Below are positions 4,937 to 53,565 of a DNA stretch of 57,658 bases, piece by piece (position 1 is the stretch's first letter; every line of letters starts with the position of its first letter). Location: positions 1 through 57,658 of IMG/VR virus record IMGVR_UViG_3300045256_000273; one strand, 5' to 3'. The translations under genes were made by a program, and so were the position numbers. Source of the stretch: a virus. A model generated the notes under the pieces. The model had not been told where the DNA came from. It did not search any database and was given only the letters and a program-made list of their open reading frames with translations.

Positions 4937-4965
4937 TTGACAAATATCCATCAATACGATATCGT
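4937..4965 (+). promoter_or_regulatory. Promoter with overlapping 18-bp operator (site A)
   Basis: TTGACA (4937-4942), a 17-bp spacer and TATCGT (4960-4965) precede the 4995 operon. The -35 box is the left half of an 18-bp element, TTGACAAATATCCATCAA (4937-4954), matching the recurring TTKAC-N8-GTMAA site with one mismatch. Binding there should block polymerase. Confidence 0.7.
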
Positions 4966-4994
4966 TTAGATATCGCATAGAGGAGGAAACGACG

Positions 4995-5189
4995 ATGGAT
5001 GAGCAAACACAATCGGTATTCGCAGCAATCGACCAGCTACCCGACGCGAGCGCAGAAGAGAAAGACGCGCTCAAGCAAATCTTCCAGGTCGAGGGTTTTG
5101 GTGGCGCCGAGGACCACGACGACCACGACGAGCTAGCACGCGAGCGCCTGGCGTGGTTGCGCCAGCAGCGCGCCGAAGGACTCCGCTAG
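4995..5189 (+). CDS. Small acidic hypothetical phage protein
   Basis: 64 residues, first gene of a rightward operon. GAGGAGGAAACGACG before the ATG is a strong ribosome-binding site. The sequence is mostly helical and acidic, with an alternating Asp/His stretch (EDHDDHDEL). No known domain. Driven by the promoter at 4937-4965, so probably expressed when the 18-bp site is free. Confidence 0.65.
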   Translation: MDEQTQSVFAAIDQLPDASAEEKDALKQIFQVEGFGGAEDHDDHDELARERLAWLRQQRAEGLR

Positions 5190-5203
5190 AAATCCTCGAC
5201 AGG

Positions 5204-5284
5204 GTGCGTCAATATCTCGAAGCCCGCATCCAGGCCGCCGCCGACCAGAGCGACGACGACGACTCGTCGCAGCTTAAGGATTGA
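5204..5284 (+). CDS. Possible 26-residue peptide
   Basis: GTG 5204 follows ACAGG and opens a frame reading VRQYLEARIQAAADQ then an acidic Asp run, ending 2 nt before the next ATG. The helical composition resembles its neighbours and the frame is open upstream for some 16 more codons. The call rests only on composition and position between two operon genes. Confidence 0.25.
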   Translation: MRQYLEARIQAAADQSDDDDSSQLKD

Positions 5285-5286
5285 AC

Positions 5287-5481
5287 ATGGCAGACGACAT
5301 CGCAAAAGACCGCGTAAAAGTCGTAGTCGAGCTCGACCGCGCGGATTACGAGGCGGCTCGGCAGAAGGCGAGGCGCGAGGACGACCGCAGCTTCCGCGCC
5401 CTGGTGCGCATGCTCATCAAGCGGTATCTGCGACGGGGCGGAAACGACGGCGCTGGCTCGGCTAGCGGTCGGCGCGGCTAG
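5287..5481 (+). CDS. Ribbon-helix-helix-like small protein
   Basis: 64 residues. A beta-strand (DRVKVVVELD) followed by two helices (ADYEAARQKARRED and SFRALVRMLIKRYLRR) matches the MetJ/Arc fold. This suggests a dimeric DNA-binding regulator or plasmid/phage copy-control protein. AAGGAT lies 6 nt before the ATG. The Gly/Ser-rich tail is encoded in part by the repeat block at 5448-5468 shared with 55466-55486. Confidence 0.6.
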   Translation: MADDIAKDRVKVVVELDRADYEAARQKARREDDRSFRALVRMLIKRYLRRGGNDGAGSASGRRG

Positions 5482-5493
5482 CGACCGTCGGAA

Positions 5494-5511
5494 TTGACCA
5501 AAATCCGTAAG
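5494..5511. promoter_or_regulatory. 18-bp operator-like site
   Basis: TTGACCAAAATCCGTAAG fits TTKAC-N8-GTMAR. It ends in the ribosome-binding site of the gene starting at 5524, so binding could affect transcript passage through the operon. Confidence 0.6.
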
Positions 5512-5523
5512 GAGAAAGACACG

Positions 5524-5697
5524 ATGAAACGCCTGGCCAATTTTCTCGCCCTCTGGTCGCCCAGCCTGACCGGCATCGCGCTCGGCCTGATGCTGCTCTA
5601 CGGCACCGTCAAGCTCGGCATCCTGTTGTCTCTGGTCACGGTCGCGATCGTCTGGCGGGACAACCAGTACGGGTCGCGCAAGGAGGTCCGACGATGA
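5524..5697 (+). CDS. Small membrane protein
   Basis: 57 residues, start set by AAGGAG 9 nt upstream. A hydrophobic stretch of about 30 residues ([19 protein letters not shown] then ILLSLVTVAIVW) gives one long or two short membrane spans; the C-terminus is basic (SRKEVRR). The stop overlaps the next start by ATGA. Its 3' two thirds are duplicated at 55486-55641. Function unknown; a superinfection-exclusion role would be a guess. Confidence 0.6.
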   Translation: MKRLANFLALWSPSLTGIALGLMLLYGTVKLGILLSLVTVAIVWRDNQYGSRKEVRR

Positions 5698-5730
5698 TGA
5701 CGTACGGATGGCCCGAGGAACCCCGCGAAC
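5572..5730. repeat. Direct repeat R2, left copy
   Basis: 159 bp covering the end of the membrane protein gene and the start of the next gene recur at 55486-55641 with about 95% identity by eye and a 3-bp deletion (ATGATG to ATG). A 21-bp block at 5448-5468 belongs to the same duplication; the right copy lacks the 103 bp in between. Confidence 0.85.
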
Positions 5731-6080
5731 AATGGCCGGAGGACGCGCGCTGCGCGACCTGCGGGCACGCCGACCGCTACCATTGCGCCCCCGAGCCTGA
5801 AGACCGCGAAACCGGATTGATGCTGGAGCGCTGGTTGCCGACGGGCGCGTGCTACGACTGCGAGGCCTGCATCGACAAGTTGCCGGCGGGATGGACGCGC
5901 AAGCGCTGGCTCTGCGAGAGCTGCCGCCGGACGGTCGATATTGAAGACTTCAGAATGCGCGGCGTGCGCTGGCCAGAGTGGAACGGCCCGCGCCTGGAAA
6001 TCACCCACCGCAGCTGCGGCGGCGACATTCTCGATCCGGCCGGCAAACACGCAGATGAGGAAATCGAGGAGAAGCTATGA
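5694..6080 (+). CDS. Cys-rich hypothetical protein with zinc-ribbon pairs
   Basis: 128 residues. C-x2-C motifs occur early (CATCGH), in the middle (CYDCEAC) and later (CESC), followed by HRSCGG, suggesting two treble-clef or rubredoxin-like zinc sites. It starts in the ATGA of the preceding gene and its own stop overlaps the next start, also ATGA. A truncated second copy of its first codons lies in R2 at the right end. Function unknown; a DNA- or RNA-binding accessory protein is plausible. Confidence 0.6.
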   Translation: MMTYGWPEEPREQWPEDARCATCGHADRYHCAPEPEDRETGLMLERWLPTGACYDCEACIDKLPAGWTRKRWLCESCRRTVDIEDFRMRGVRWPEWNGPRLEITHRSCGGDILDPAGKHADEEIEEKL

Positions 6081-6262
6081 ACATGGAGACAGGGGAAATG
6101 AACGAAATCCAGACCGAACTTCGGCTAGCCCTCATCAACGTGGCCGTCATGGCCTACCAGCGAGGCCTGACCGTCGGCTTTCGCGATGAAGCCGCCATCC
6201 TCGACGGCGCCCTTTCGCGATTCCTCGCAGAGGTCGATAATCTAGGCGAGTTAGATAATTGA
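6077..6262 (+). CDS. Small helical hypothetical protein
   Basis: 61 residues, overlapping the previous stop by ATGA. The sequence is almost wholly helical (ELRLALINVAVMAYQ, AAILDGALSRFLAEV). Last gene of the rightward operon, ending at the AT-rich gap. No family recognised. Confidence 0.6.
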   Translation: MNMETGEMNEIQTELRLALINVAVMAYQRGLTVGFRDEAAILDGALSRFLAEVDNLGELDN

Positions 6263-6531
6263 CCCGCTGAAAATTTCCTAACACCGACCACAAGACCCAA
6301 AAACCCTTAAGAATCAATAAGATAGAATATATATGTTAGATAGTTAGTTAGTTAGTCGTTTAGATAATAGAAAATCTTATTGGACGTTGTGCGACTCTTA
6401 TATATGGGGTGTGGGGCCGATTTTCTGACAGCGCGTGTGCGCGCACGTCTAATGGGTCATGTCTTATAAAAATTACCTACCTAACTAATTTTCTAACAAC
6501 CTGTAAAATCAAGGGGTTACGACGCTCGCGG
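6263..6531. other. AT-rich convergent gap, candidate replication origin
   Basis: A sharply AT-rich island in GC-rich DNA between two convergent operons. GTTAG is repeated three times in tandem at about 6341-6355 and appears inverted as CTAAC at about 6480-6495. TTAGATA occurs near 6247, 6336 and 6360. A 10-bp palindrome GTGCGCGCAC lies at 6437-6446. These look like iterons and an unwinding element. The region adjoins the 3' end of the primase-helicase gene, as phage origins often do. A bidirectional termination zone is the alternative. Confidence 0.45.
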
Positions 6532-8625
6532 TTAGGAAGCAACTAACATGTCGGGTTTTATGTCGAGAAGATAGACCTGGGTACGGTCCATGATGACCCT
6601 GACCTTGTAGCTCTCGAAGCCGAAATCGTGGCCGTTGCTGGCGAGGCAGCCCTGGTCGGCAATCAATTTCGTGAGCATCCTGACGCCGACGCTCGGGCGA
6701 GTGCCGTCCACCGCCATGTGATAGACGACCGAGTGCGCCACGTCGATCGCGAGCAGATAGCGGTCCTTTTCCTCGTCGATATAGAGGCTGCACGGCCCTT
6801 GCGGGGTGTAGGTGCCAGTCTTATCGGTCGCCCAGCCCCAAACGCCAGTCGCCGGCTTTGTGCCGTGGAGGGTGCGGGCGTGCGTCCGACCGGCGAGAAG
6901 CGCTTGCGCGTACAGGTCGAAGAAGCGCGAAACGGGATTTTGGTTCGCGCGCGCCTCTTTTCCCTGCTTCTTCGCCTTCTCGAAGAAAAGCGCGTCGCAA
7001 TCCGGGATTTTGATGCCCGAGAACTCTTGCCAGACTTCGAGGGTCGCCTGAAGCTCGGCTAGCGCCAGCGCCGTCCGCGGATGAGCATTGAAACCGCGCG
7101 CGACCTCGGCCGCCTGTCGCGCGATGCGCTTACGGATTTCCGTAAGCCTCGGAGCGAGCCATTTGATCCAACCGGCCATCGCGGCGCTCAAAACGCCCGT
7201 CTCGCCCGCCTGATGCAGCGCAATGAGCCGATCCAGGTCTAGGTCGCCGCGCGCGACCTCCAAGACGACCATGCGCGCCTCGAGGCTGCTGCCCCAGACA
7301 AATTCTTCCGCAGTCGCGAGGATCATGCCGCGCGGAGCCCGCGTCGGCTTTTCGTTCGCGTCGGCCGCCAGTCGTCCGCGACCCTGCCGATTACCTTGGG
7401 CGCGGAAAAGCCGCTCCGCCGCTTGTTGGAGACTCTTGTCGAGCCCGTGCGTAGCTGGCCGGAAATCGTCGATCACTAGCAGGGCATCCTTGGCGCGAAA
7501 GGCGAGATTTTCGTTGAAATTGACTGTGGACGCCCAGTTGCCGGGCAACCGCTCGCGGTCAAATCCGGCGCCAAAATGCCGCTGCGCGACAGCCGCAAGA
7601 CTGGATTTGTAGGTGCCGGTTTCGCCGACCAAAAAAACGGAAAAATCGGCTTCGGCGAGCGCGGCCCGCCAAATGGCGGCGAAAAGCGCGACCAGCTCGG
7701 CGCGCGCGCGTCCGGCCTCGAGCAGGCCCGCCGACGTACGCAGGCATTCGCGGAGCTCCGCCCCTTCCGGCGGCACCGGCAACCGAAAATCCGACAGGCT
7801 CGGCGGAAGTTCGGCTTGGATGTCGCCGCGCAGACCGTCCGCCGCGATCCCGCCGCCGCCGTGAAGGTACACCCAGTCGCCGTCGATTTCGCGCCATCCA
7901 GTATGAGTGTAGATGGTCCGTTCGAGCATCTGGCCGGACAATCGCTCGATTGCCTCGCGGAGCCGGTCGCGAATGCCCATGCCGGCCGAAATCACAGCGC
8001 CGCCGCGCAGCCTCGCGACCCAGTTCATCGCCGGAAACTGCGCAGCCGGGATCTCGACGGTCTGCGGCGACTTCCCGTCCACCTGAACGCGGAGCGTCAG
8101 AATGCGCTCCTGGCTCAAGCCGTCGTCTTTCAGGACATCCTCGATGATGCGCGCGTTGAAATTCGCCAATACCTCCTCGACGAAGACCTCGGTACGGCCC
8201 GACTTGATGGCCTTGCGGAAAATGGTTGAGCCGTCCTTGTGGATTTCGTACGGCCCCGCGACCGTCGGTGGGGTTTCGACCGTGCGCGCAGCTTCCTTTA
8301 GCAGCGCATCGAATTTCTCGCGGAAACCGGGCGGATCGTCGAGGTAGAGCGCCGAGGGATCCTTAAATCCGCTCGGTCCCATGAACAGCGTTTCGATGCG
8401 GCCGGCAAACCCGATTTCGCGAAGGCGCGCGGAGAGCGCGGCGGGAAACTTCTGGCCGGCGACGTCGGGCTCGCTGACGATAACGATGCGGTCAAAGCCC
8501 GCGACGTGCTCCGCCGCGAGGCATTTGACGTTGGATGAGCCGGGAATGCCGAGCGCGGGATATCCGTGATGCCAGAGCGTCCAGCAATCGGATTCGCCTT
8601 CAACTAGGATCAGATACGCCGCCAT
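6532..8625 (-). CDS. Primase-helicase, TOPRIM plus DUF927 ATPase
   Basis: 697 residues. An N-terminal TOPRIM domain has VEGESD at 8-13 and the acidic pair in VSEPDVAG near 50-56. The C-terminal half is a DUF927-type helicase ATPase with Walker A GETGTYKS (334-341) and Walker B LLVIDDF (382-388). It would synthesise primers and unwind DNA at the phage fork. ATG 8625 is preferred over the longer frame from 8718, whose extra residues are random Arg-rich sequence read over the upstream gene. GGAGG lies 4 nt upstream. The zinc-finger half normally fused in front is a separate gene at 9136-9636. Confidence 0.8.
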   Translation of the reverse strand: MAAYLILVEGESDCWTLWHHGYPALGIPGSSNVKCLAAEHVAGFDRIVIVSEPDVAGQKFPAALSARLREIGFAGRIETLFMGPSGFKDPSALYLDDPPGFREKFDALLKEAARTVETPPTVAGPYEIHKDGSTIFRKAIKSGRTEVFVEEVLANFNARIIEDVLKDDGLSQERILTLRVQVDGKSPQTVEIPAAQFPAMNWVARLRGGAVISAGMGIRDRLREAIERLSGQMLERTIYTHTGWREIDGDWVYLHGGGGIAADGLRGDIQAELPPSLSDFRLPVPPEGAELRECLRTSAGLLEAGRARAELVALFAAIWRAALAEADFSVFLVGETGTYKSSLAAVAQRHFGAGFDRERLPGNWASTVNFNENLAFRAKDALLVIDDFRPATHGLDKSLQQAAERLFRAQGNRQGRGRLAADANEKPTRAPRGMILATAEEFVWGSSLEARMVVLEVARGDLDLDRLIALHQAGETGVLSAAMAGWIKWLAPRLTEIRKRIARQAAEVARGFNAHPRTALALAELQATLEVWQEFSGIKIPDCDALFFEKAKKQGKEARANQNPVSRFFDLYAQALLAGRTHARTLHGTKPATGVWGWATDKTGTYTPQGPCSLYIDEEKDRYLLAIDVAHSVVYHMAVDGTRPSVGVRMLTKLIADQGCLASNGHDFGFESYKVRVIMDRTQVYLLDIKPDMLVAS
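7129..7146. promoter_or_regulatory. 18-bp operator-like site within primase-helicase gene
   Basis: CTTACGGATTTCCGTAAG is nearly a perfect palindrome (17 of 18 positions in pairs) and contains both consensus half-sites. Its place inside a coding region resembles a stoperator rather than a promoter operator. Confidence 0.55.
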
Positions 8626-9145
8626 GCAACCTCCGCAGCCCCTCCGCCAACTCGACGCACGCCGCCATCCGAAGATACCGCGCGCGAACCGCCTCTGCGT
8701 CCAGCCCGGCCGCCGCACAAGCCAATTCGAACGGCACCGGCGCGGGGTCGCCCATCACCCAGCTGATCAACGACTTCCGCTCAGCAACACGCTTCGGCGG
8801 TTTTCTGCGATAGTCCCACCACGCGAGCTCCAAGACTGCCGCAAACAATTGGCTCTCAGGGCTACTCGTCGGCTCACGGCGCGGGAGCTGGCATGGCAGG
8901 ACGAACTCGCTGAATAGCCCGTCGCCATAAAGAATGTCGGTCGCCGTCGCGGTCAAGCCTTGATTTTTACCGTGATTCGTAAATCCGACACGCGGAGCCC
9001 CCGCATCAACGCGCACCCGCTTTCCGGCCGCCTCGCGCTCCGCATATTGCCTTACCCGCTTGGCGTGCATCCATTCGCGATTGTATTTGCGCAACCGCTC
9101 GCGGTTTTTCTCAAGCCACGCCCGCCTTGCTTCGCTTATCGCCAT
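8600..9145 (-). CDS. Hypothetical protein inserted between the two primase halves
   Basis: 181 residues from ATG 9145 (GGAG 9 nt upstream), overlapping the zinc-half gene by 10 nt and the TOPRIM-helicase gene by 26 nt. The N-terminus (WLEKNRERLRKYNREW) is a basic helix like that preceding HNH domains in phage endonucleases, but no HNH or other nuclease motif is present. The C-terminal part (FELACAAAGLDAEAVRARYL) recalls a small helical domain common in phage replication regions. Function unknown. Its position suggests an insertion that split an ancestral primase. Confidence 0.55.
   Translation of the reverse strand: MAISEARRAWLEKNRERLRKYNREWMHAKRVRQYAEREAAGKRVRVDAGAPRVGFTNHGKNQGLTATATDILYGDGLFSEFVLPCQLPRREPTSSPESQLFAAVLELAWWDYRRKPPKRVAERKSLISWVMGDPAPVPFELACAAAGLDAEAVRARYLRMAACVELAEGLRRLHGGVSDPS
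8966..8983. promoter_or_regulatory. 18-bp operator-like site
   Basis: TTTACCGTGATTCGTAAA has exact TTTAC/GTAAA arms around 8 bp. It lies inside the gene between the primase halves. Confidence 0.5.
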
Positions 9146-13485: not shown

Positions 13486-14081
13486 CAGAACGGCACCTTC
13501 TCGTCGTCGGCCTCGTCCGCGCCCACATCCGACCCCGACGCCGCCTGCCCGTTCTTGCGCGCCTGCCACGCCGCGAAGCTCTCGCGATACCGCTTCGCCT
13601 CTTGCGGACTCATCGGCTCGTATCCCGCGAACGCCACCCGCGCATCCGTTATCGGCTTCCCGTCCTTGCGCAGTTTCAGAGTGCCGTCCTTGTTCTTGCG
13701 CTGCTCGTGACGATCCACATCAACCCACCAATAGCTGCCGTCGAGTTCGTCCGGCTGGCAGTCGTGCGGCTCGTCGCCCTCGATGATGCCGGCGCGCGTG
13801 AAAATGATCTTGACGCGCTTCAACGCCTTCTCGCCGAACGACAGCGAATCCGTAATCCAACGACCCGCGAACTTGCCGTCAAGAATGGTCGCTTTGATGC
13901 CCCAGGATTCGTCTCCGGCGTTCGTGTGGCGAACAGCCGGCCGCCCTTCGGCGTCTTTGAGCGGATTGCCCTCGGCGTCGCGCTGGATGTTGTCCACCGC
14001 GAGAACGCACGGATACTTGCCGACCGGAAGCGGCTCGAAATTGTCGTTGTCGGCCACCTTGGAGAAATCAACGCGCGGCAT
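13485..14081 (-). CDS. SSB-like single-strand-DNA-binding protein (DUF669-like)
   Basis: 198 residues. The N-terminus (DFSKVADNDNFEPLPVGKY) and FAGRWITDSLSFGEKAL resemble the DUF669/phage SSB-like type. The C-terminus is acidic and ends DEADDEKVPF, closely like the SSB tip that recruits partner proteins. Position between recT and exonuclease genes agrees. Start at 14081 is favoured because AGGAG is 8 nt away; the ATG at 14087 would be only 2 nt from it. Confidence 0.65.
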   Translation of the reverse strand: MPRVDFSKVADNDNFEPLPVGKYPCVLAVDNIQRDAEGNPLKDAEGRPAVRHTNAGDESWGIKATILDGKFAGRWITDSLSFGEKALKRVKIIFTRAGIIEGDEPHDCQPDELDGSYWWVDVDRHEQRKNKDGTLKLRKDGKPITDARVAFAGYEPMSPQEAKRYRESFAAWQARKNGQAASGSDVGADEADDEKVPF

Positions 14082-15132
14082 TGGCATAGCTCCTTTCCAG
14101 TACGCCGAGAATCGCGGCCTGCTGCTCCGCCGTCAGTTCCGCGAGCGAGGCGGCTCCATACTTCGCGAGGGCGAGATTTACGCGCTTCGCGGGTACGTCA
14201 TGGACGCGAATGAACGTCTCCAGCGGCAGTTCGTCCGGGTCGATTTTTTCGAGGCCGGCGGCGCGCTGCGCCTCGGCGGCAGCGGGAGCGGGAGCTGGCC
14301 CCGAGCCTTGGGGGGTATCGCTCGGTGCCGTGGGTTCTCCCTGCTCGCCGCCGCCGCTTTGGCGTTCCTCCTCCGCCGCTTCCGTCCCCGCCGCCATCTC
14401 CGCACCGTCCGTCGCGCGAGGCGGGCGCCCGCGGCGCTTGACCTCGTGCTGCGCGCGATGCGCCTGACACAGATAGAACTCGCCAGCCTTCGTCTTGAAC
14501 TTGCCGATGGCGTTCTCGACGCATCCGGTGTGTTGACATTTATCCGTCAATTCGGCTGGCGTCGGCTCCGGCACGACCGGCGACGCCTCGACTACCTTCG
14601 CCGCCGCGATGCGTTCCGCATCGTCCTCGTCGATGACCTCAGTGATTCCGAACGTGAACCGCGCGCACTCCTGGAACGCCTTGGCGAACAAGCGATGCCG
14701 AGGATACTGCTCCCAGTTGGACTTCTCGCCCTGTTTCCCCGCGACCATCCACTCGTCCATCCAGGCGGTGTACTCGCCGGGGACCGCCCAATCCTTGCGG
14801 TACATCTTGACCGTGATCGCGGTCAGAACGCCTTGGTCGTTCAGGATCGGCGTGGCTTCGTAACCGTTGAACATCACATGCCGCGTCGCGATCTTGATCC
14901 AACCGTCAAGCCCGATCGTTACTTCGAGTCGCCCCTTGTTGATGAAGGCGTGGACCTCGCGCGCGAGCGGGTTCAGGTCGTACTTCTTCGCGATGGTGAG
15001 CAACAGCATGAGCTGCGCGTCGCTGGCTGCCCCGTCCTTAAAACAGCGTTGCTTGACGACGCTGACGAGTTGCGGCACGTCCATCTCGTGACGCTTCGCC
15101 AGTTCCGCAAGCAGAGTGCTCTCCGTGCCCAT
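14068..15132 (-). CDS. RecT/Bet-family single-strand annealing protein
   Basis: 354 residues. Residues 1-185 follow the Bet/RecT pattern (LLTIAKKYDLNPLAREVHAF, TIGLDGWIKIATRH, NWEQYPRHRLFAKAFQECAR, FGITEVID). They would anneal complementary strands with the exonuclease and SSB-like partners. Then comes an unusual insert with C-x4-C and C-x2-H (CQHTGC, LCQAHRAQH), a probable zinc finger, an Ala/Pro/Glu linker and a C-terminal helical domain (about 300-354). GGAGGG precedes the ATG. Confidence 0.82.
   Translation of the reverse strand: MGTESTLLAELAKRHEMDVPQLVSVVKQRCFKDGAASDAQLMLLLTIAKKYDLNPLAREVHAFINKGRLEVTIGLDGWIKIATRHVMFNGYEATPILNDQGVLTAITVKMYRKDWAVPGEYTAWMDEWMVAGKQGEKSNWEQYPRHRLFAKAFQECARFTFGITEVIDEDDAERIAAAKVVEASPVVPEPTPAELTDKCQHTGCVENAIGKFKTKAGEFYLCQAHRAQHEVKRRGRPPRATDGAEMAAGTEAAEEERQSGGGEQGEPTAPSDTPQGSGPAPAPAAAEAQRAAGLEKIDPDELPLETFIRVHDVPAKRVNLALAKYGAASLAELTAEQQAAILGVLERSYANAAR
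14533..14550. promoter_or_regulatory. 18-bp operator-like site within recT
   Basis: TTGACATTTATCCGTCAA, exact consensus arms. It is inside the recT coding sequence at the zinc-finger insert, so a stoperator role is more likely than promoter control. Confidence 0.6.
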
Positions 15133-15145: not shown

Positions 15146-15163
15146 TTGACCTAGTTTCGTAAA
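15146..15163. promoter_or_regulatory. 18-bp operator-like site at a gene junction
   Basis: TTGACCTAGTTTCGTAAA, exact arms, between the recT start and the end of the upstream gene, overlapping that gene's stop codon. Confidence 0.6.
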
Positions 15164-15348
15164 TCCCCGTGCGCGGCGTCTTCGTGCGCCTCCAGACACT
15201 CGCGACAGAGCGGCCCGAGCGCGCCGACGCCGCCAAGACCGTCTTTGTGCGGCCGCTCGCACCAGAACTTCATGCCTATCGCGTCGTGCGCGCCGATGCA
15301 GCGCCAGGTCGCATCCCGTTCTTGAGCCGCCATCACCACTGGCTTCAT
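15151..15348 (-). CDS. Small Cys/His-containing protein
   Basis: 65 residues, start set by GAGGAGGTCGC 9 nt upstream and the ATGA overlap with the preceding gene. Cysteines at WRCIGAHD, WCERPH and LCRECLEAH suggest a C-x-H/C-x2-C zinc site. No family recognised; member of the early replication operon. Confidence 0.6.
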   Translation of the reverse strand: MKPVVMAAQERDATWRCIGAHDAIGMKFWCERPHKDGLGGVGALGPLCRECLEAHEDAAHGDLRN

Positions 15349-15850: not shown

Positions 15851-15876
15851 TTTACACTTTTCCGTCAACCATTATC
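15851..15876 (-). promoter_or_regulatory. Leftward early promoter region with operator (site C)
   Basis: Reading leftward, GATAAT (15871-15876) is a good -10 box with no clear -35. Three bases downstream lies TTTACACTTTTCCGTCAA (15851-15868 on the plus strand), so the expected start near 15864 falls inside the operator. The late promoter at 53548-53574 has the same geometry. Confidence 0.6.
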
Positions 15877-15937
15877 GACAAAACGCCCGCGAAACCTACG
15901 AAATCCGCAGTAGAAACCTTTGCGAAACCGCGCCGGA

Positions 15938-15980
15938 CAGAATTAGGAATCCTGTGCTCTATCCGCTGAGCTAAGGGGGC
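15938..15980 (-). tRNA. 5' half of a tRNA-Arg(CCU), truncated
   Basis: Acceptor 5' strand GCCCCCT, D-arm GCTC/GAGC and anticodon arm CAGGA-TTCCTAA-TTCTG (anticodon CCT) are intact. T-arm and 3' acceptor strand are absent, so this is not a functional tRNA. It sits 64 bp beyond the integrase stop codon, where attachment sites usually lie, and probably marks the phage att core. Confidence 0.75.
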
Positions 15981-15985: not shown

Positions 15986-16020
15986 TTGATTTTACTGGAT
16001 TTTTGTGGTGCGCGGGATTT
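15986..16020. repeat. 35-bp direct repeat beside the tRNA fragment
   Basis: TTGATTTTACTGG...GGTGCGCGGGATTT matches 53763-53798 at 31 of 36 aligned positions. It adjoins the tRNA half and may be an integrase arm site or a remnant of an attachment region. Confidence 0.6.
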
Positions 16021-16043
16021 TTCACGCTCAATTTCGGCCAGAT

Positions 16044-17150
16044 TTAAGCGCGTCGCGCGTCTCGCGCCATGTCATTGCCGCGCTCCGTTGTTGTTATCGT
16101 GGTCGCGACCTTTCTTTCGTCCGGCAGCTCCGCCAGCCCCGCAAACGTCCGCTCGAATCCCCGCCGCAAGTCCTCCAGGTTCACGATCCGATACCGCGCC
16201 AGCATCGACATTGATTTATGCCCGCTCGCCCGCATCGCCAGCATCGGGTCAACCCCCTGGTTGATCATGTTGCGAACGCCGCTGCGCCGCAAACAATGGA
16301 GCACATGACCTTTGAAACCCGCAGCCTCGCAAGCGCGCCGCCATGCGACCCGCAAAGGTGCCTTACCGCCGCGCAGCCGAAAGGGCTCCCCGTCGCGATG
16401 GAACACAAACGGACAGTCGAGTCGCCGACGCATCTTCGCGCGCTCGATGACCTCCGCGAGCGGCCCGACGAGCGGGATGCGATGCGGGTCGCCCGTCTTG
16501 GTAGTCTCGCCCCGCGCCGTCACCACGCCCTCGCGCAGATTCACGTCGCGCCACTCCAACGCCGCAACCTGGCCCTCGCGCCAGCTCGACAGATACATGA
16601 ACGTCACAATGTCGCGCATGTCCTCGGGCAGTCCGTCACGGACCGAGAAAAAATCAGCCTGATTCAAGAAGTCCTGCCGGACGCGCAACGTCTTCGGAGG
16701 GAACAGCTTGACCTCGGGCTGGCGGGTCAGCCGGCATAGCCTGTACATCTGGCGCAACACGGCGAGCTCTTGGTTGATCGTCGCCCGCGCCGCATCCTCT
16801 TTCAGCCGCGCTTCTTTGTAGCGCTCCACCATGCCCGTCGTGACATCGACCAGACGCATTTTCGCGAACGCCCGCGCCAGATGCCGCGCTCGCTGGTCGA
16901 GATCCGTCGAGCGCAGATTGTGGTCGCGCCGGTGCGCGCGAATGCGCTCGATGCCGTCCTCGAACTTTACGCGGTCTTCGTCCGGCGTGTAGCCCGTCGC
17001 AGTCTTGCGAAGCTCCGCCGCGAGAATCCGGCGCGCAACCGCCTCGCTCGTCTGATGCGTGCTGCGACGGAACACGCGGCCGTTCAGCGAATAGCCGACG
17101 TAATAGATGCCCTTCGGCCCGACGCGAAACACTCTACCGGTCCCAGCCAT
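16044..17150 (-). CDS. int: Tyrosine-recombinase integrase
   Basis: 368 residues. An N-terminal arm-binding strand region and a SAM-like core-binding domain (about 60-150) precede the catalytic domain. Catalytic residues are all present: R191 (SSWREGQVAAL), K218, H285/R288 (HCLRRSG), H311 (SGHKS) and Y320 (ARYRI). AAGGAGG lies before ATG 17150. It is adjacent to the tRNA-Arg fragment and the excisionase gene, so it should integrate this phage at a tRNA-Arg(CCU) site. Confidence 0.9.
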   Translation of the reverse strand: MAGTGRVFRVGPKGIYYVGYSLNGRVFRRSTHQTSEAVARRILAAELRKTATGYTPDEDRVKFEDGIERIRAHRRDHNLRSTDLDQRARHLARAFAKMRLVDVTTGMVERYKEARLKEDAARATINQELAVLRQMYRLCRLTRQPEVKLFPPKTLRVRQDFLNQADFFSVRDGLPEDMRDIVTFMYLSSWREGQVAALEWRDVNLREGVVTARGETTKTGDPHRIPLVGPLAEVIERAKMRRRLDCPFVFHRDGEPFRLRGGKAPLRVAWRRACEAAGFKGHVLHCLRRSGVRNMINQGVDPMLAMRASGHKSMSMLARYRIVNLEDLRRGFERTFAGLAELPDERKVATTITTTERGNDMARDARRA

Positions 17151-17163: not shown

Positions 17164-17559
17164 TTATGCCAGCCTGAGCTTAGGCAATACTCGCGTCTTG
17201 CGGTCGCCAACGCTGCGCTGCCGCTCCTCCTCGGCGATCCACTTGTCCAGCCCGGCCTCCGACGCCATCCAGCGCCCGCCAACCTTCGTGATGAAAGAGA
17301 ACTCGTCGCGATGCGCAATCAGCGTGCGCGGCGAGAGTCCGCCCATCCGCAATGCGGCCTCGTCAATAGGGATCAGCCGCTCGCCGCCCGTCGCGCGCTT
17401 GCGGCCCGCGCGGTCGGAAAGCAGCGCAAAACGCCCCAGCAGCGGCAGGATAATCGCATTCAGCAGCAACCACAACGCATCGCGCGTATCCTCTAGGTTC
17501 ATGTCCTGAATTGCGGCCGGATTCTGCATGATTGAGGAGGCCAAGTTAGCGAGCGTCAT
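17164..17559 (-). CDS. Excisionase-like helix-turn-helix protein
   Basis: 131 residues. The C-terminal half (IDEAALRMGGLSPRTLIAHR then GGRWMASEAGLDKWIAEE) is the MerR/excisionase-type winged helix. The N-terminus is a hydrophobic helix (LWLLLNAIILPLLGRFALL). It lies 13 bp upstream of int in the same operon, the usual place for a recombination directionality factor. AAGGAAC precedes the ATG. Confidence 0.62.
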   Translation of the reverse strand: MTLANLASSIMQNPAAIQDMNLEDTRDALWLLLNAIILPLLGRFALLSDRAGRKRATGGERLIPIDEAALRMGGLSPRTLIAHRDEFSFITKVGGRWMASEAGLDKWIAEEERQRSVGDRKTRVLPKLRLA

Positions 17560-17611: not shown

Positions 17612-17629
17612 CTGACTTAAAACTGTCAA
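17612..17629. promoter_or_regulatory. 18-bp operator-like site in the switch region
   Basis: CTGACTTAAAACTGTCAA: one mismatch in the left arm, exact right arm. It overlaps the leftward -35 TTGACA. Confidence 0.55.
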
Positions 17630-17632: not shown

Positions 17633-17650
17633 ATTTCCGATATTCGTAAA
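17633..17650. promoter_or_regulatory. 18-bp operator-like site in the switch region (imperfect)
   Basis: ATTTCCGATATTCGTAAA: exact right arm GTAAA and the CGATATTC core shared with 30709-30726, but a poor left arm. It starts 4 bp after the previous site. Confidence 0.45.
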
Positions 17651-17735
17651 CCAATTTTTGTTAACAAGTTCTTGACTCACCCTTTGTATGTTGCAATCCT
17701 GCAACACGGGAACTGGCGGAAAGGGGGTATCCGCC

Positions 17736-18389
17736 ATGAAACGGCGATACGCAAAACCGACGCTTCAAAGCCTGCTTCGCGCCTACGGCCTTTCGATCGA
17801 TGAGCTTCCGATCGACCCGCCGTACTTGAACGCAGATCGCACTGGATTGGAGCTCCCGGAGCGACTGCGAGAGAAAACGATTCGCCAGATCGCGGCAGCC
17901 GCCATCTGGAACGATTCTGGCGGCTTCTCGGTCGGCGACATACATGAATGGGTCAAGCGGCACGAAAGTTCCGGCTCTCCGCTGAAATTCGAGCAGCTTC
18001 GCGAAATGTGGTACGAGGCCGGCTACAAGCGCCAGACCCTCTATAACTACTGCACCGCGTCGCGGAACTTCCCGCTCGGACATCGCATCGCCGGACTCTC
18101 GATGTGGTGCCACTATGCCGTGCTCGTGTTGAACCCGACGCTGCGCGAGCAAGTGCTGTCGCGAGCTAAGCGAGAGGGCTGGAGCCTGTCGCAAGTCTCC
18201 GCTGAACGGCGTAGGTTGCGTGGCGCCCCGGAAGATGCTGGCGTCGCTGCGGCAGTCCGGTTCGAGGGTGCCGTCGCCGACGTCCGGCGTGCGCGTTCGT
18301 TCTCGGCCGACCAGGCCGCCTCGCTGCGCAGCGGCGCAATCGAGGTTCTGAAGCTTGTGAAGAGACACCCCCCGAAACATCGCTCCTAA
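17736..18389 (+). CDS. Candidate immunity repressor / ParB-like DNA-binding protein
   Basis: 217 residues, start set by AAGGGGG about 9 nt before ATG 17736. The central part (KRQTLYNYCTASRNFPLG then SMWCHYAVLVLNPTLREQ and AKREGWSLSQVSAER) resembles the helix-turn-helix region of ParB/KorB-like and related phage regulators. It is the only sizeable gene transcribed away from int/xis, from the operator-rich switch region, where a lysogeny repressor belongs. Repressor function and binding to the 18-bp sites are inference. Confidence 0.5.
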   Translation: MKRRYAKPTLQSLLRAYGLSIDELPIDPPYLNADRTGLELPERLREKTIRQIAAAAIWNDSGGFSVGDIHEWVKRHESSGSPLKFEQLREMWYEAGYKRQTLYNYCTASRNFPLGHRIAGLSMWCHYAVLVLNPTLREQVLSRAKREGWSLSQVSAERRRLRGAPEDAGVAAAVRFEGAVADVRRARSFSADQAASLRSGAIEVLKLVKRHPPKHRS

Positions 18390-18413: not shown

Positions 18414-18431
18414 TTTACTAAAATTCGTCGA
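18414..18431. promoter_or_regulatory. 18-bp operator-like site (one mismatch)
   Basis: TTTACTAAAATTCGTCGA, with GTCGA in place of GTMAA. It lies 19 bp before the 18450 promoter. Confidence 0.45.
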
Positions 18432-18449: not shown

Positions 18450-18478
18450 TTTACAGATTTTGGTTTACAGTTTACAAT
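18450..18478 (+). promoter_or_regulatory. Promoter for a leaderless gene
   Basis: TTTACA (18450-18455), 17-bp spacer, TACAAT (18473-18478). The ATG of the next gene begins 8 nt beyond the -10 box, so transcription should start at or next to the A of ATG. TTTACA is repeated in the spacer. Confidence 0.65.
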
Positions 18479-18485: not shown

Positions 18486-18665
18486 ATGGCGACGATTTCG
18501 ATTTCGCGGCGCCGCACCAACGAGAAATGTGCGCGGCGCACCTCGAGCGCGCTTATCCGTGTGACGATAGAGACGCACAAACGCTTGCTTGAATTGAAAC
18601 GCCGAACCCGCCGCTCGATGGCGGAGATCGTCGAGAAAGCGGTGTCGGCGGTTCGGGTGCGCTAG
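18486..18665 (+). CDS. Ribbon-helix-helix regulator, predicted leaderless
   Basis: 59 residues. A basic N-terminal arm precedes a canonical RHH core: strand ALIRVTIET, helix HKRLLELKRRTR, turn, helix SMAEIVEKAVSAV. Likely a dimeric DNA-binding regulator of the CopG/Arc type. No ribosome-binding site exists because the promoter puts the start codon at +1. Ends with a 4-bp convergent overlap with 18662-19204. Confidence 0.65.
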   Translation: MATISISRRRTNEKCARRTSSALIRVTIETHKRLLELKRRTRRSMAEIVEKAVSAVRVR

Positions 18666-23688: not shown

Positions 23689-23857
23689 CGCCGCCTCCCA
23701 GATGCGCGCCCGTCGCCGCCGACACCAACGCGATGCCCAACGTCATCAAGTCGCCCGCATGCGCCTGGCCGAAGGCCGTCAGAACCGCCACACATGGCAA
23801 CACGATCAGCCCCAAGCCAGATGCGAAGATTCCGGCTTTGACGAGAAGTTCCCTCAT
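23654..23857 (-). CDS. Holin-like small membrane protein
   Basis: 67 residues. One or two hydrophobic spans (LVKAGIFASGLGLIVLPCVA and LMTLGIALVSAATGAHL) and a Gly-rich tail. It follows the endolysin gene with an ATGA overlap. Small, membrane and lysis-linked: a holin or phage-membrane protein is the natural reading, without specific homology. Confidence 0.55.
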   Translation of the reverse strand: MRELLVKAGIFASGLGLIVLPCVAVLTAFGQAHAGDLMTLGIALVSAATGAHLGGGGGNGGGSPQGS

Positions 23858-24365: not shown

Positions 24366-24383
24366 TTTACGAAAGTTTGTCAA
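24366..24383. promoter_or_regulatory. 18-bp operator-like site upstream of the endolysin gene
   Basis: TTTACGAAAGTTTGTCAA, exact arms. It lies between the pilin terminator and the endolysin start, with no clear -10 in phase. Confidence 0.6.
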
Positions 24384-30644: not shown

Positions 30645-30786
30645 AGGTCTTGCTCCTCGTTTTCCGTGATGCGCGCAAACGCTTCCCGCGCGAGCGAAGA
30701 CTGCGGACCTTACCGATATTCGTAAGCTGACCGCGCAACCTGCGCACGCGATCGAGCGCAACGTCTCGGATCCGCCCGCGTCTCAT
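30634..30786 (-). CDS. Arg-rich 50-residue protein
   Basis: The frame from ATG 30786 begins MRRGRIRDVALDRVRRL and stays Arg-rich to its end at KTRSKTYGF. GGGAG lies 9 nt before the start, which overlaps the preceding stop as ATGA; the end overlaps the next gene. Short enough to be missed by size cut-offs, but well embedded in the coupled operon. Confidence 0.55.
   Translation of the reverse strand: MRRGRIRDVALDRVRRLRGQLTNIGKVRSLRSRGKRLRASRKTRSKTYGF
30709..30726. promoter_or_regulatory. 18-bp operator-like site
   Basis: CTTACCGATATTCGTAAG, a palindrome with the same core CGATATTC as the switch-region site 17633-17650. It lies inside the 50-residue Arg-rich gene. Confidence 0.55.
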
Positions 30787-39157: not shown

Positions 39158-40077
39158 CAGAGAATCCGCGCGCCCGGCGGCCCTTCAAAGTCGATCTGCT
39201 GGATGATTTCGTAGCCGGGACGATAGTTCTGTCCCTGCTTTTGGCCCTGCCGTTCGATGTCGTCGTTGATCGCGCGCTGCCGCTCCTCCTGGTAACGCTT
39301 GTCGGCGGCCTGCGCGGCGTTCATCCAATTGGCGCTCCCCTGCGAAGCGTACAGCGCCAGATAGCACAAGCTGAGCGCCTTGTTTTCGAGGACACTGACG
39401 GGAATCTGCGGCCAGTCGTTATCGGCGACGAGCGGCTTGAACCGCTCGCGATACTCGATCACGAAGGACTGCACGCCGCCGGGGCGCAACCAGAGCTCCA
39501 GCCTGACGTTGCCTTGGTTGTCGTATCCGCCGATGGCCCATGCGACCGAAGGCGTTGAAGTGCCGGCGAGCCGCGCGGGATCGAGTAGGTGCAGCATGAA
39601 GCGCGACACCGGCAGCACTGGCAGGATTTGCCGAACTAGGTAAACCTGCGCGCCGCCCGGAACGGAATAAAACTGCGGACGCAGATCGAAATTGACGTTG
39701 CTTTGCGACACGTCGCCCCACGGCTCGCTAAGCTCAAGCTCGGTCGGCGACACGAAACGCTCGACGTTGAGCGGCATATACTGCGAGCCCAGCATGACAA
39801 CCCAGTTCTCAGGCGGGCAGTAGTCCGGCAGGCTGTCGGGCATCGGAAAATTCGTCTCGTAGCCAACGACGGTCTTCGAGCCGTTCGTCAGGCTGACGAC
39901 GCCATTGACGTTATCGGGAATGCCCCAGATGACGCCGGTCTTGAACAGGGCCGACCACTGCCACGACTCGATTTCTTCCTCGAGCGCCTGGTTGACGAGC
40001 GTGCCGATGTCCGCGTCCGCAAGCTGCCCCATCGTTAGGACTTTGAGGCGATTTCGGACTTGCTTAAAGGTCGGCAT
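39157..40077 (-). CDS. Putative head-tail connector / tail accessory protein
   Basis: 306 residues. The N-terminus (KQVRNRLKVLTMGQLADADI) and C-terminal helix (AQAADKRYQEERQRAIND) flank a beta-rich centre. Similar two-part proteins follow the portal/capsid block in podoviruses as the adaptor ring or tube protein. Assignment by context and composition. Confidence 0.45.
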   Translation of the reverse strand: MPTFKQVRNRLKVLTMGQLADADIGTLVNQALEEEIESWQWSALFKTGVIWGIPDNVNGVVSLTNGSKTVVGYETNFPMPDSLPDYCPPENWVVMLGSQYMPLNVERFVSPTELELSEPWGDVSQSNVNFDLRPQFYSVPGGAQVYLVRQILPVLPVSRFMLHLLDPARLAGTSTPSVAWAIGGYDNQGNVRLELWLRPGGVQSFVIEYRERFKPLVADNDWPQIPVSVLENKALSLCYLALYASQGSANWMNAAQAADKRYQEERQRAINDDIERQGQKQGQNYRPGYEIIQQIDFEGPPGARIL

Positions 40078-42524: not shown

Positions 42525-42530
42525 CGCTTT

Positions 42531-42572
42531 AAAAAAATGCCCCCAGGCCGGGAGGAACGTCAGCCTGGGGGC
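42531..42572 (-). terminator. Strong intrinsic terminator before the fibre gene
   Basis: Leftward GCCCCCAGGC ... GCCTGGGGGC forms a perfect 10-bp stem with a 14-nt loop, followed by A-T then seven T (42537-42531). It ends 7 nt before the fibre start codon, inside the late operon. Confidence 0.88.
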
Positions 42573-42632
42573 CGGTCGCGCCTGCCCCGTAAACACGACG
42601 CAAGGCGTTAGTGACCTGTAGCCGCAGCGCGA

Positions 42633-45198: not shown

Positions 45199-45216
45199 TT
45201 GACAGATATCCGTCAA
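45199..45216. promoter_or_regulatory. 18-bp operator-like site upstream of the capsid gene
   Basis: TTGACAGATATCCGTCAA, exact arms and the most symmetric core (GATATC). It overlaps the scaffold stop codon. Confidence 0.65.
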
Positions 45217-46660: not shown

Positions 46661-46690
46661 TTGACAATCTTCGGTAAAACAACGTAATTA
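46661..46690 (+). promoter_or_regulatory. Promoter overlapping an 18-bp operator-like site
   Basis: TTGACA (46661-46666), 17/18-bp spacer, GTAATT/TAATTA (46684-46690). TTGACAATCTTCGGTAAA (46661-46678) has exact TTGAC and GTAAA arms. The ATG at 46698 follows the -10 by 7 nt. Confidence 0.65.
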
Positions 46691-46697: not shown

Positions 46698-46874
46698 ATG
46701 CGGGGAAGTCAACGACAGGAACGGTATCTGTCGGCAAAAGAGGTCGGCGCAATCATCGGCCTTAACGAGGATACTGTCTGCCGACTGCTGAAGTGCGGAA
46801 AGCTGAAGGGCGCGAAAATCGGACGGTCGTGGAGAGTCAGACCGAGCGACATCGACAGGATGTTCGAGCGGTAA
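46698..46874 (+). CDS. Excisionase-type HTH regulator, predicted leaderless
   Basis: 58 residues. YLSAKEVGAIIGLNEDTVCRLL then GKLKGAKIGRSWRVRPSDIDRM is the helix-turn-helix plus wing of the HTH_17/excisionase family. It is transcribed against the late operon from its own promoter and is convergent with the portal gene, one base apart. Likely a small DNA-binding regulator or recombination directionality factor. A second such protein lies beside int (17164-17559). Confidence 0.75.
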   Translation: MRGSQRQERYLSAKEVGAIIGLNEDTVCRLLKCGKLKGAKIGRSWRVRPSDIDRMFER

Positions 46875-48713: not shown

Positions 48714-48763
48714 TTTTTTATTGTGTCAGCGACAACAAGGTGCGATAGGCCCCGTCGTACTCA

Positions 48764-49378
48764 TCAACGTATGATTGTTGCGGTCGGCGTCCCCGCGTCG
48801 CGTCCGCCGGTCGTCGGCTGCGGCGCCTGCGGCGGCTCCTGCCCATTCAATTCCTCGAACCATTCCTCGGCGGTCTTGAAGAATCCCTCGGGATACTCCG
48901 TCGCCTGCTTCGGAGCGGTCGGCGGGAAATGTTTGCTCGCGCAATCGTTCGAGCAACACACTTGACCGGGGTACGCGCGCCGGAAAATCTGCGGGCGCCC
49001 GTCGGCGTGCGGAACCGGACATCGCCCGTGCATGACCGCGAGCGGATCGGCGGCCGTTTTCTCGCCCGGCTGCCCCACGTCGTATCCATTGATGAGCTGA
49101 AGTTGAAGGCCGTTATCGAGAATGATCGCGATGTACTTGAGAACGCGTTGGCCCGGCCCCATGCCGTGTTCCGCCGCGCAAGCTTCGTCGCGCTCGCGCC
49201 ACGCGGGTTCGGCCGCGTAGATATGCTCCAGCAGCTTTTTGGCGGCTGCGTCGAGATCGGAGTCCTTTGCGGGCGCAGCCTCGGCGGCGGCGACTTCCGC
49301 CTCGGTCGGCGGCGACGCAGCGGTCTTCTGCCTGTTGGCCGCTACGATGTCGGGGTCGAACTTGAATTTGTTTGACAT
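48764..49378 (-). CDS. Hypothetical protein between terminase and portal
   Basis: 204 residues. Acidic/Ala-rich N-terminus, helical middle (LLEHIYAAEPAWRERDEACA), and a Cys cluster (GRCPVP, GQVCCSNDCASKHF) near 120-150 that could bind zinc. No family. A consensus operator-like site overlaps its start codon. Another frame past its stop looks coding (48719-48780). Confidence 0.55.
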   Translation of the reverse strand: MSNKFKFDPDIVAANRQKTAASPPTEAEVAAAEAAPAKDSDLDAAAKKLLEHIYAAEPAWRERDEACAAEHGMGPGQRVLKYIAIILDNGLQLQLINGYDVGQPGEKTAADPLAVMHGRCPVPHADGRPQIFRRAYPGQVCCSNDCASKHFPPTAPKQATEYPEGFFKTAEEWFEELNGQEPPQAPQPTTGGRDAGTPTATIIR

Positions 49379-49389
49379 TTTTCCGTCAA
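49372..49389. promoter_or_regulatory. 18-bp operator-like site behind the terminase gene
   Basis: TTGACATTTTTCCGTCAA, exact arms, spanning the terminase stop and the ATG of the next gene. Confidence 0.65.
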
Positions 49390-51284: not shown

Positions 51285-51618
51285 TTTCCGCTGCCGCCGC
51301 CGCTACCGTCGCCGTTGCACTGGCCGCTTCTTCGGCTTCCCGCGCCGCCCGCTTGGCCTCCATCGCGGCGTGCGCCTTTTCCAGATTCTTGAGCGCGACC
51401 CCTCTCATTTTCTTGTGTCGGTCGAGCGTCCGCAGCTCCCGCAACAGCAGAAACTCGATGTATTCGTGGGTGCTCAGGTGTCGCTCCGCCGCAAGCTGGC
51501 GGACTTGCAGGTGTTGCTCCGGCGTAAGCCAGACCGAATGGTTGACACGCGTGACCGTCACCTTCGTCCCATAGGACTGCTGCTTCATGCTTTCGAGCCT
51601 GCCGCGCGTGAGATACAT
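51256..51618 (-). CDS. Candidate small terminase subunit / RHH-like protein
   Basis: 120 residues from ATG 51618 (GGAGG 8 nt upstream, TGATG overlap). Strand KVTVTRVNHSVWL and helices TPEQHLQVRQLAAERH and STHEYIEFLLLREL resemble a ribbon-helix-helix DNA-binding unit; then an Ala/Glu coiled coil. Its position directly before the large subunit gene is where TerS belongs. Function otherwise unproven. Confidence 0.5.
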   Translation of the reverse strand: MYLTRGRLESMKQQSYGTKVTVTRVNHSVWLTPEQHLQVRQLAAERHLSTHEYIEFLLLRELRTLDRHKKMRGVALKNLEKAHAAMEAKRAAREAEEAASATATVAAAAAENANGESSAS

Positions 51619-51761
51619 CAGAATCGCCTCCAGCGATGTTCGCGCATGTCGAGAACCGGACGCCGCGCGTCCCACGGACGACGCCGGCGGCGCGAGGCCG
51701 GATTATTCGCCCGTAAACGCTGCATCTGCATGAAGCGGCGCTGCTCAGGCGTTACCGCCAT
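51618..51761 (-). CDS. Arg-rich 47-residue protein
   Basis: The frame from ATG 51761 has GGAG 7 nt upstream and overlaps both neighbours (17 nt and TGATG). Sequence starts MAVTPEQRRFMQMQRLRANN and has a five-Arg run plus an Arg/Trp/Phe end. Too small for default gene callers but clearly in the coupled operon. Confidence 0.55.
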   Translation of the reverse strand: MAVTPEQRRFMQMQRLRANNPASRRRRRPWDARRPVLDMREHRWRRF

Positions 51762-52092
51762 TCAGCTGCTCCATGATTGCCGCCACTTCGTCCGTCGTCG
51801 GCGCGGGCTCGCGGAACGTGCCGCGTCCCATTCCGGCCACATCATGCGGAAATTGCACGGCGGGCTGCTCGCGCGATTGCGGCGGCGGCGGGGTCGCGAA
51901 GGTCGCCGGCTTCTCAGGCATCATCTCCGCCGCGGCGGGCGCCAGCACGCGATTGAGCGCGCGCAACGCCGGCCACAACTGCATCAGGTCGCTCAACGCC
52001 TGTGCCTGCCGCTGCACCCAGTACGCGATGTATGCGAGTTCCGCGACCGCAGCCACCGCGATGACCAAAATCAGTAAGCTAAGATTCGACAT
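51745..52092 (-). CDS. Single-span membrane protein
   Basis: 115 residues. N-terminal hydrophobic span (LSLLILVIAVAAVAELAYI), helix, then a Pro-rich tail (FATPPPPQSREQPA). No cleavable signal evident. Early in the late transcript; function unknown. Confidence 0.5.
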   Translation of the reverse strand: MSNLSLLILVIAVAAVAELAYIAYWVQRQAQALSDLMQLWPALRALNRVLAPAAAEMMPEKPATFATPPPPQSREQPAVQFPHDVAGMGRGTFREPAPTTDEVAAIMEQLNGGNA

Positions 52093-52990
52093 CCGCCGTC
52101 CCTCCGTTTTTCATCTGCCGCTCCAGTTCCTCGTCGCTCAGCGTCGATACGTCCTTTACGGGAAACGCCTGTCCCGGTATCACCGCCGTCGGCGCCGGCG
52201 CCGGCTGCTCCGCCGCATACTTCAGCAGCCGCGTATAAATCTCCACCGCCTCCTCGAGCCGCCCCTCCTGAACGTAATAGACCGCGAATCGCTCCAGCGC
52301 CCTCGCGTACCGCCCGCGCTGCTCCCCGAGCCATTCCGGCGGCACCCGCGTCCGCAGCGTCGGCAGCCGCAACTTTTTGGGAACCGGCAGTCCGCCCTGT
52401 CCGTCACCATCCACGATGTCGTTCAAATCCTCCGCGAGTCGCGCACGCCGCAGCAGCTCGTCCTGGATCGCCGCGACGGGAATCTCCACCATTCTGCCGC
52501 CCAAGCCGCCCGGATCCTCGTCCGGCTGCGGCTCCGTGCCCTTCAGGATGTCGCTGAAGGCGCTCGGCTCCCCCCGCGGCCAGTCGCTCACTTGCCCGAG
52601 CTGGCCGTTGACCCATTTCAGCCGTTCCCACAACTCGCGCCGAACCAACAGAACCAACTCCCGCCGAAGCGCCTTCTCGCGCCGGCCAGCCGAATCCAAC
52701 GTCGCGCGCGCCTTTTCGAGACGCCGCACGCCATCCGCATCCAACGCGAAAACGTCCCGCTCCAGCTCGGAAATCTCGGCCCGCGCGCGCTCCGCGCGCT
52801 CCTGCTCGCGCCGTATCCCCTTCGCGATGATGCGACGCTTCTTCTCGAACGTCCGGTCGCTCGGCGTGCCCCCGTGCCAGTCGATCGCGCGCGCCCGCTG
52901 CCGCGCCTCCAGCCCCACCATCGCGCGCATCCACACCATTCGGTCCGCATACAGCACCGCGCGTATCTGCTCGGACGTCGGTAATTCCAT
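52079..52990 (-). CDS. Coiled-coil hypothetical protein
   Basis: 303 residues. Long charged coiled coil at about 45-125 (EKKRRIIAKGIRREQERAER, REKALRRELVLLVRREL), a middle acidic/Gly region, and a helical repeat near 230-265 (ALERFAVYYVQEGRLEEAVE) like a TPR hairpin. No enzyme motif. Abuts the methyltransferase stop. Confidence 0.5.
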   Translation of the reverse strand: MELPTSEQIRAVLYADRMVWMRAMVGLEARQRARAIDWHGGTPSDRTFEKKRRIIAKGIRREQERAERARAEISELERDVFALDADGVRRLEKARATLDSAGRREKALRRELVLLVRRELWERLKWVNGQLGQVSDWPRGEPSAFSDILKGTEPQPDEDPGGLGGRMVEIPVAAIQDELLRRARLAEDLNDIVDGDGQGGLPVPKKLRLPTLRTRVPPEWLGEQRGRYARALERFAVYYVQEGRLEEAVEIYTRLLKYAAEQPAPAPTAVIPGQAFPVKDVSTLSDEELERQMKNGGTADVES

Positions 52991-53524
52991 TCACTTCGAC
53001 AGCCCCCGAAAGTTCCTCACCGCCCAAATGCTGTCCGGCAGCCGCTCCCATTCCCCCACCGTCTCCGCCAGTGCCCGCCGCACGCTCTCGTACCCCTCGT
53101 CATGCCCCGCCAACACCCCGCCACGCGCCACCCGCGCCCCGTACCCCCTCACATCCGCCAACACCGCCTCGTACGAATGGTCCGCGTCAATGAACACCAG
53201 GTCGAAAAACGGCAGCTCCCGCTTCGCCGCCTCCACCGACCGACACGGATGCACCACCAGGCGGTCCAAAATCCCAAACCGCCCCACCGCCGCCAAAAAC
53301 CCCGGAAACTCCGCCGGCGGCCCGTCCCCGCTCAGCAAATCCCCAAACGTGTCCACCACATGCACCGTCAGCCTCCGCGCCCGCACGATGTCTGCCACGC
53401 TACACAGACTCCGCCCTCGCCACGCCCCAACCTCACAGGCCACCCCGCCCTCGGGCACCCCACCATACAACCCCCGATAACTCTCAATATCCCCGCCCGA
53501 AAAGTACCCCTGCGGCAATTCCAT
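52991..53524 (-). CDS. Class I SAM-dependent methyltransferase
   Basis: 177 residues. Rossmann-type core with motif I VACEVGAWRGRSLCSVA (E-x-G-x-x-x-G), VHVVDTFG as acidic loop of motif II, and FDLVFIDADHSYEAVLADV then GGVLAGHD, typical of Methyltransf_24 (small-molecule or glycan methylation). First gene of the late leftward transcript. GGAAAAC lies before the ATG. Confidence 0.75.
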   Translation of the reverse strand: MELPQGYFSGGDIESYRGLYGGVPEGGVACEVGAWRGRSLCSVADIVRARRLTVHVVDTFGDLLSGDGPPAEFPGFLAAVGRFGILDRLVVHPCRSVEAAKRELPFFDLVFIDADHSYEAVLADVRGYGARVARGGVLAGHDEGYESVRRALAETVGEWERLPDSIWAVRNFRGLSK

Positions 53525-53547
53525 CTCAGTTTTCCTGATTCTTCCCG

Positions 53548-53565
53548 TTGACCGTCTTCCGTAAA
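53548..53565. promoter_or_regulatory. 18-bp operator-like site at the late promoter
   Basis: TTGACCGTCTTCCGTAAA, exact arms, 3 bp downstream of the late -10 box, the same spacing as at the leftward early promoter. Confidence 0.65.

Follow-up and report, generated by a model that had tools for sequence, protein, structure and literature searches.

A short palindrome, TTKAC-N8-GTMAA, recurs along the virus record IMGVR_UViG_3300045256_000273 from IMG/VR (57,658 nucleotides, the whole of which was analyzed and is called the window here), which raises the question of what regulator its copies serve. A preliminary description had listed 16 such sites from 4.9 to 53.6 kb, likened them to the stoperators of L5-like mycobacteriophages and named the products of two genes, 17736-18389 and 18486-18665, as possible binders. 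We found that the sites are well supported as operators of a single dimeric regulator, dispersed as a network. We put the probability at roughly 0.6 that this regulator is a lysogeny repressor encoded by the temperate phage itself, with the 17736-18389 product as the likeliest candidate; the identity of this binder, repression itself and its role in lysogeny are what we infer from the evidence below. The phage is known only from metagenome contigs.

Nine exact copies of the motif are present in the window, compared with 0.04 expected from dinucleotide-preserving shuffles, so that its density is not reproduced in shuffled sequence, and the same pattern read backwards gives no occurrence in the window. 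A motif chosen by eye needs an unbiased judgement, and therefore all palindromic dyads with 5-base arms, one degenerate position and gaps of 0-20 (161,280 tests) were ranked blind. TTKAC-N8-GTMAA ranked first (nine seen vs 0.13 expected; log10 p about -13.5), some seven orders of magnitude ahead of the runner-up, which is GC-rich (log10 p -6.7). The ranking is able to detect operators, since it recovered two site pairs flanking the annotated cI gene of Synechococcus phage Yong-M3-232. The latter pairs (RATAC-N5-GTATY at 29842, 29867, 30641 and 30666, spaced 25 base pairs (bp)) are likely operators.

Individual sites were scored with a symmetric 24-bp matrix, where E is the number of matches expected per genome at an equal or better score. 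Both the matrix and the dyad ranking describe the site as an 18-bp palindrome, not an asymmetric element. The sites are as follows.

4937..4954, predicted operator covering the -35 box and spacer of TTGACA-17-TATCGT, a rightward promoter ahead of genes 4995-6262; one mismatch, top matrix score
5494..5511, predicted operator that overlaps the ribosome-binding site of gene 5524-5697 within a gene junction of 42 bp; one mismatch
7129..7146, possible operator within gene 6532-8625; CTTAC-N8-GTAAG variant, two mismatches, E 0.33
8966..8983, predicted operator within gene 8600-9145 of the leftward early operon; exact
14533..14550, predicted operator within the RecT-like gene 14068-15132; exact
15146..15163, predicted operator where genes 15151-15348 and 14068-15132 meet; exact
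15851..15868, predicted operator in the leftward early operon's leader, immediately beyond a GATAAT -10-like box; exact match, the promoter recognized by inspection only
17612..17629, probable operator that includes the -35 box of the xis/int promoter (TTGACA-16-GCTAAT, minus strand); E 0.07 with one mismatch, the promoter recognized by inspection
17633..17650, weak site at a distance of 21 bp from 17612, ahead of the LmbU-like gene 17736-18389; two mismatches, E 2.2 genome-wide
18414..18431, weak site between the LmbU-like gene and the ribbon-helix-helix (RHH) gene 18486-18665; one mismatch, E 1.4
18450..18467, weak site covering the promoter-like TTTACA-17-TACAAT that precedes the RHH gene; E 0.52
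24366..24383, predicted operator upstream of the endolysin-like gene 23854-24345 (minus strand); exact
30709..30726, probable operator within a late intergenic gap of 295 bp; CTTAC-N8-GTAAG, two mismatches, E 0.07, identical in a 97.8% identical relative
39627..39644, possible further site within gene 39157-40077; E 0.01, identical in the same relative
45199..45216, predicted operator in the 41-bp junction preceding the major capsid gene; exact
46661..46678, predicted operator over the -35 box TTGACA of a putative rightward promoter of the HTH_17 gene 46698-46874; exact, promoter by inspection
49372..49389, predicted operator over the terL stop and the start codon of gene 48764-49378; exact
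53548..53565, predicted operator at the start of the late region, immediately beyond a TATAGG -10-like box; exact match, the promoter recognized by inspection only

At least eleven sites are strong by the matrix (the nine exact copies, 4937 and 5494; E at most 0.01). Site 39627 falls under the same threshold as a weaker addition with a poorer centre and was absent from the preliminary list, whose 16 coordinates are all correct as sequence. That list had put the imperfect copies at about three plus 4937; we count seven of 16 that deviate, including 5494 with one mismatch and 7129 and 30709 with two each. Its further members divide into two probable sites (30709, 17612), one possible site (7129) and two (17633, 18414) that lie at chance level genome-wide, neither being significant alone. 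Simple arithmetic from the matrix gives scores of the latter class an expectation of about 0.007 in the 176-bp gap and 0.003 in the 96-bp gap around the 17736-18389 gene, and both sites gain weight solely because they are placed, together with 18450, in the short gaps flanking a regulator gene.

Placement relative to genes was judged from gene calls made by simple codon-based prediction, which leave 9.7% of the phage as intergenic DNA. Nine of the 12 matrix sites touch intergenic DNA or a gene boundary, compared with 12.8% under random placement (p=1.4e-6). This enrichment is not due to intergenic composition, because only 0.015 exact dyads are expected there from the composition of that DNA itself. 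Both exact intragenic sites (8966, 14533) also exceed a synonymous-codon reshuffling control (two seen vs 0.077 expected, P=0.003). The sites are thus much more frequent than chance allows, are concentrated in intergenic DNA and at gene junctions, and extend over most operons. Four of them (5494, 15146, 45199, 49372) occupy tight gene junctions. As to promoters, the -35 placement at 4937 is borne out by a promoter scan that finds a consensus promoter, while the -35 boxes at 17612 and 46661, and the -10-like boxes preceding 15851 and 53548, can be seen by inspection only. Upstream of the putative late promoter, aaaaactagccagcggccac is present in two tandem copies (53590-53632).

TTGAC belongs to the -35 consensus, and a set with seven imperfect members among 16 could be read as -35-like words recurring by chance in a genome poor in AT. 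The shuffles, the blind ranking, the intergenic-composition control and the synonymous-codon control all reject this explanation for the whole set, leaving it a negligible probability; chance may still apply to 17633 or 18414 singly.

The preliminary description regarded 4.9-53.6 kb as one regulatory unit, a statement that needs rewording, as this interval is most of a genome that appears to be circular. An exact 127-bp repeat (4185-4311 = 57532-57658) looks like an assembly k-mer, and a 100% identical contig (L014) passes through this overlap from window position 57658 directly to 4312. Therefore, the phage genome is, as read from the assembly, a circle of about 53.3 kb, with window 1-4184 representing a separate branch of the assembly. 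This branch carries no network sites; it holds an ArdC-like antirestriction gene (39-914), a MazE/PIN toxin-antitoxin pair (1519-2147) and an SDH-type protease (2995-4176).

The lifestyle of the phage follows from two features.

16044..17150, minus strand, tyrosine integrase (PF00589 2e-14, phrog_1 2e-46)
15914..15980, minus strand, degenerate tRNA-like sequence adjoining the int stop, probable core of the phage attachment site attP (Rfam tRNA 19 bits, below the gathering score of 29)

With an integrase and a probable attP, the phage is temperate, and network sites lie over its early and integration promoters (4937, 15851, 17612), two of which are promoters by inspection only. The 5' half of the tRNA-like sequence resembles tRNA-Arg by eye. 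Similar stretches, TTGATTTTACTG...TTTTTG.GGTGC, are found near attP (15986-16022) and near the late promoter (53764-53800), the second being a possible att-like site. The circle also contains a 159-bp duplication (5572-5730 / 55486-55641, 94% identical) and, in an accessory region, pieces of an IS3-type transposase (55715-56263 and 56569-56847). The relatives of the terminase and capsid are mostly Proteobacteria phages, several of them podoviruses. A Gram-negative host can be presumed from these structural-gene relatives only.

The motif could instead be a host operator that the phage gained at many promoters in order to exploit a host-encoded regulator. Such an operator should recur in other phages of the same host. 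We found 49 stretches with the tight form of the site in IMG/VR, of which 46 are unrelated contigs with one to three sites each; the network was found in no contig outside the phage lineage, to which two further contigs belong. Seventy-nine terminase cousins gave six motif matches in 902 kb, and the network was found neither in these nor in helicase cousins, so that counting sites in related phages did not extend it beyond the lineage. IMG/VR scans with the capsid and terminase returned only two contigs, both of the same lineage, and scans with the 17736-18389 product, RecT or the LmbU profile gave no matches there. Such confinement speaks for a phage regulator specific to the lineage rather than for a host operator, and the phage encodes candidate regulators itself; we therefore regard a host regulator as improbable. 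With no outside relatives found to carry the network, the comparative test tying protein to site is lost.

Four genes of the phage enter the question of the binder.

17736..18389, plus strand, candidate repressor of 217 amino acids, remote LmbU-family homologue (profile, tblastn and hhalign matches)
18486..18665, plus strand, RHH (Arc/CopG-like) protein of 59 amino acids, rival binder (PF01402 E-value 0.013, phrog_3180 E-value 0.004)
17164..17559, minus strand, HTH_17/excisionase-like protein, divergent from the candidate repressor (E-value about 0.02)
46698..46874, plus strand, HTH_17/excisionase-like protein of 58 amino acids, possible regulator (PF12728 E-value 1.8e-10)

The 17736-18389 product matches the NCBIfam model of LmbU regulators (NF038070) over residues 86-177 (E-value 2.5e-9), Streptomyces LmbU by tblastn (2e-5) and LmbU by hhalign profile comparison (97%, residues 34-157). 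The homology covers the central helix-turn-helix (HTH) region. LmbU recognizes a palindromic site as a homodimer, by way of this central HTH, which has been modelled on Spo0J/ParB (PMC6510168), and such a mode of binding fits an 18-bp symmetric site. The gene is oriented divergently to the xis-like and int genes, in the immunity position, and lies between weak sites. Of the two binders named at the outset, it is the stronger candidate, the other being a weak RHH match. A perfect dyad, GTTGCA-N4-TGCAAC, in the leader of this gene (17690-17705) is unique in the window and might be a separate autoregulatory site; as a single occurrence it was rejected as a network member.

The same network could instead be read by the RHH protein or by one of the two HTH_17 proteins. 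The RHH protein matches Arc-like repressors, and its promoter overlaps weak sites and three direct TTTACA repeats in the 18450..18467 region, while operator 46661 lies on the putative promoter of the HTH_17 gene 46698-46874. However, the RHH matches are weak (E-values 0.004-0.013) and the spacing of the phage half-sites suits an HTH dimer rather than RHH proteins, which usually recognize short, closely spaced half-sites. HTH_17/Xis proteins usually bind direct repeats near att, which counts against them. We consider such a binder unlikely.

A further reading is a partition, silencing or replication role, in which a ParB/KorB-like protein would load at the dispersed sites to segregate or coat the DNA and would not repress promoters one by one. 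In its favour are the Spo0J/ParB model of the LmbU HTH (PMC6510168) and the case of RK2 KorB, which, once loaded at OB sites, exerts long-range silencing (PMC11790492). Against it stand the integrase and probable attP, the location of the sites at promoters and gene junctions, and the failure to recognize a ParA among the scanned proteins, a scan outside which many genes lie. Neither the 17736-18389 product nor its profile has a sequence match among PDB structures, ParB and KorB included. A partition, silencing or replication role is thus highly improbable.

Several observations weigh against the LmbU-like protein as lysogeny repressor acting through these sites. Its score of 37.3 bits lies far below the curated NF038070 cut-off of 125, the reported LmbU site CGCCGGCG is unlike the phage 18-mer, and the weakest sites of all are those adjoining its gene. 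AlphaFold on the single sequence gave a poor model (predicted local distance difference test, pLDDT, 53), unfit for structure search. RHH and HTH_17 proteins are at hand as alternative binders. Promoter-like sites are overall no more frequent than in shuffles and several of the proposed promoters rest on inspection. In the 97.8% identical relative all six covered sites retain both arms, a conservation that is not significant at 2% divergence.

We found no report in the literature of an LmbU relative acting as a phage repressor. Two Synechococcus phages encode LmbU-like proteins beside the terminase (in Yong-M3-232 at 42061-42603, upstream of the terminase small subunit); they were rejected as the annotated repressors, since a separate cI or HTH-XRE repressor gene is present. 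The sole genome match, in Nitrospira, was rejected as a chance match around the search peptide IWNDSGGF, and 100 Nitrospirota genomes gave no LmbU match in a search without a working positive control.

Among known systems, cluster A mycobacteriophages (L5, TipsytheTRex) likewise carry many repressor-like sites across the genome, at promoters and in short intergenic gaps (PMC9283540), as do the 11 strong sites here in their spread. In those phages a monomer binds asymmetric 13-mers that have to stand in the correct orientation (PMC9283540), in contrast to the longer palindromic 18-mers found here; our candidate binder has no sequence match to solved structures. The phage is therefore not classed as an L5 stoperator system: the dispersed layout of the original comparison holds, site symmetry fails, and an elongation block is at most suggested by the junction and intragenic placement. 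P1 is a Gram-negative precedent, a temperate phage with 22 operators of one repressor, C1, dispersed over its genome (PMC8546580), but the P1 sites are asymmetric 17-mers (ATTGCTCTAATAAATTT) of another sequence and we saw no relationship to C1. In SPbeta, the master repressor MrpR, with a tyrosine-recombinase fold, acts at about ten promoter sites (SPBRE, a 15-bp motif) spread over the prophage (PMC10516654), whereas here junctions and genes are occupied too and the candidate is LmbU-like. Given P1 C1 and SPbeta MrpR, the dispersed layout is not new. The repressor of phiC31 also binds conserved inverted repeats. RK2 KorB shares dispersed palindromic operators and a dimeric global repressor on a Gram-negative element but is a plasmid ParB-CTPase clamp (PMC11790492), a domain not recognized here. 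Streptomyces LmbU offers remote homology, a central HTH, a homodimer and a palindromic site (PMC6510168); it regulates antibiotic clusters, and the phage protein stays below the family cut-off. The palindromic site and the LmbU-like candidate are new, and what sets the network apart is their combination with junction and intragenic as well as promoter placement.

If the 17736-18389 product is indeed the lysogeny repressor, its homodimer would bind two TTKACGGA half-sites spaced by about ten base pairs. Initiation in the prophage would be blocked at the early-left, right, xis/int, late and small-regulator promoters, and at junctions and within genes the bound repressor would probably cut read-through as a putative roadblock. 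The protein may also regulate itself through 17612 and 17633. The full version of this scheme, a symmetric stoperator system in which an LmbU-family homodimer is the master repressor and palindromic, orientation-independent sites serve both as operators and as elongation roadblocks, is possible but doubtful.

If true, the network would be an independent case of whole-genome prophage silencing by one repressor, and the LmbU family, known from actinomycete antibiotic clusters, would gain a role in phage immunity. It would also provide a symmetric set of sites able to separate steric roadblocks from orientation-specific termination.

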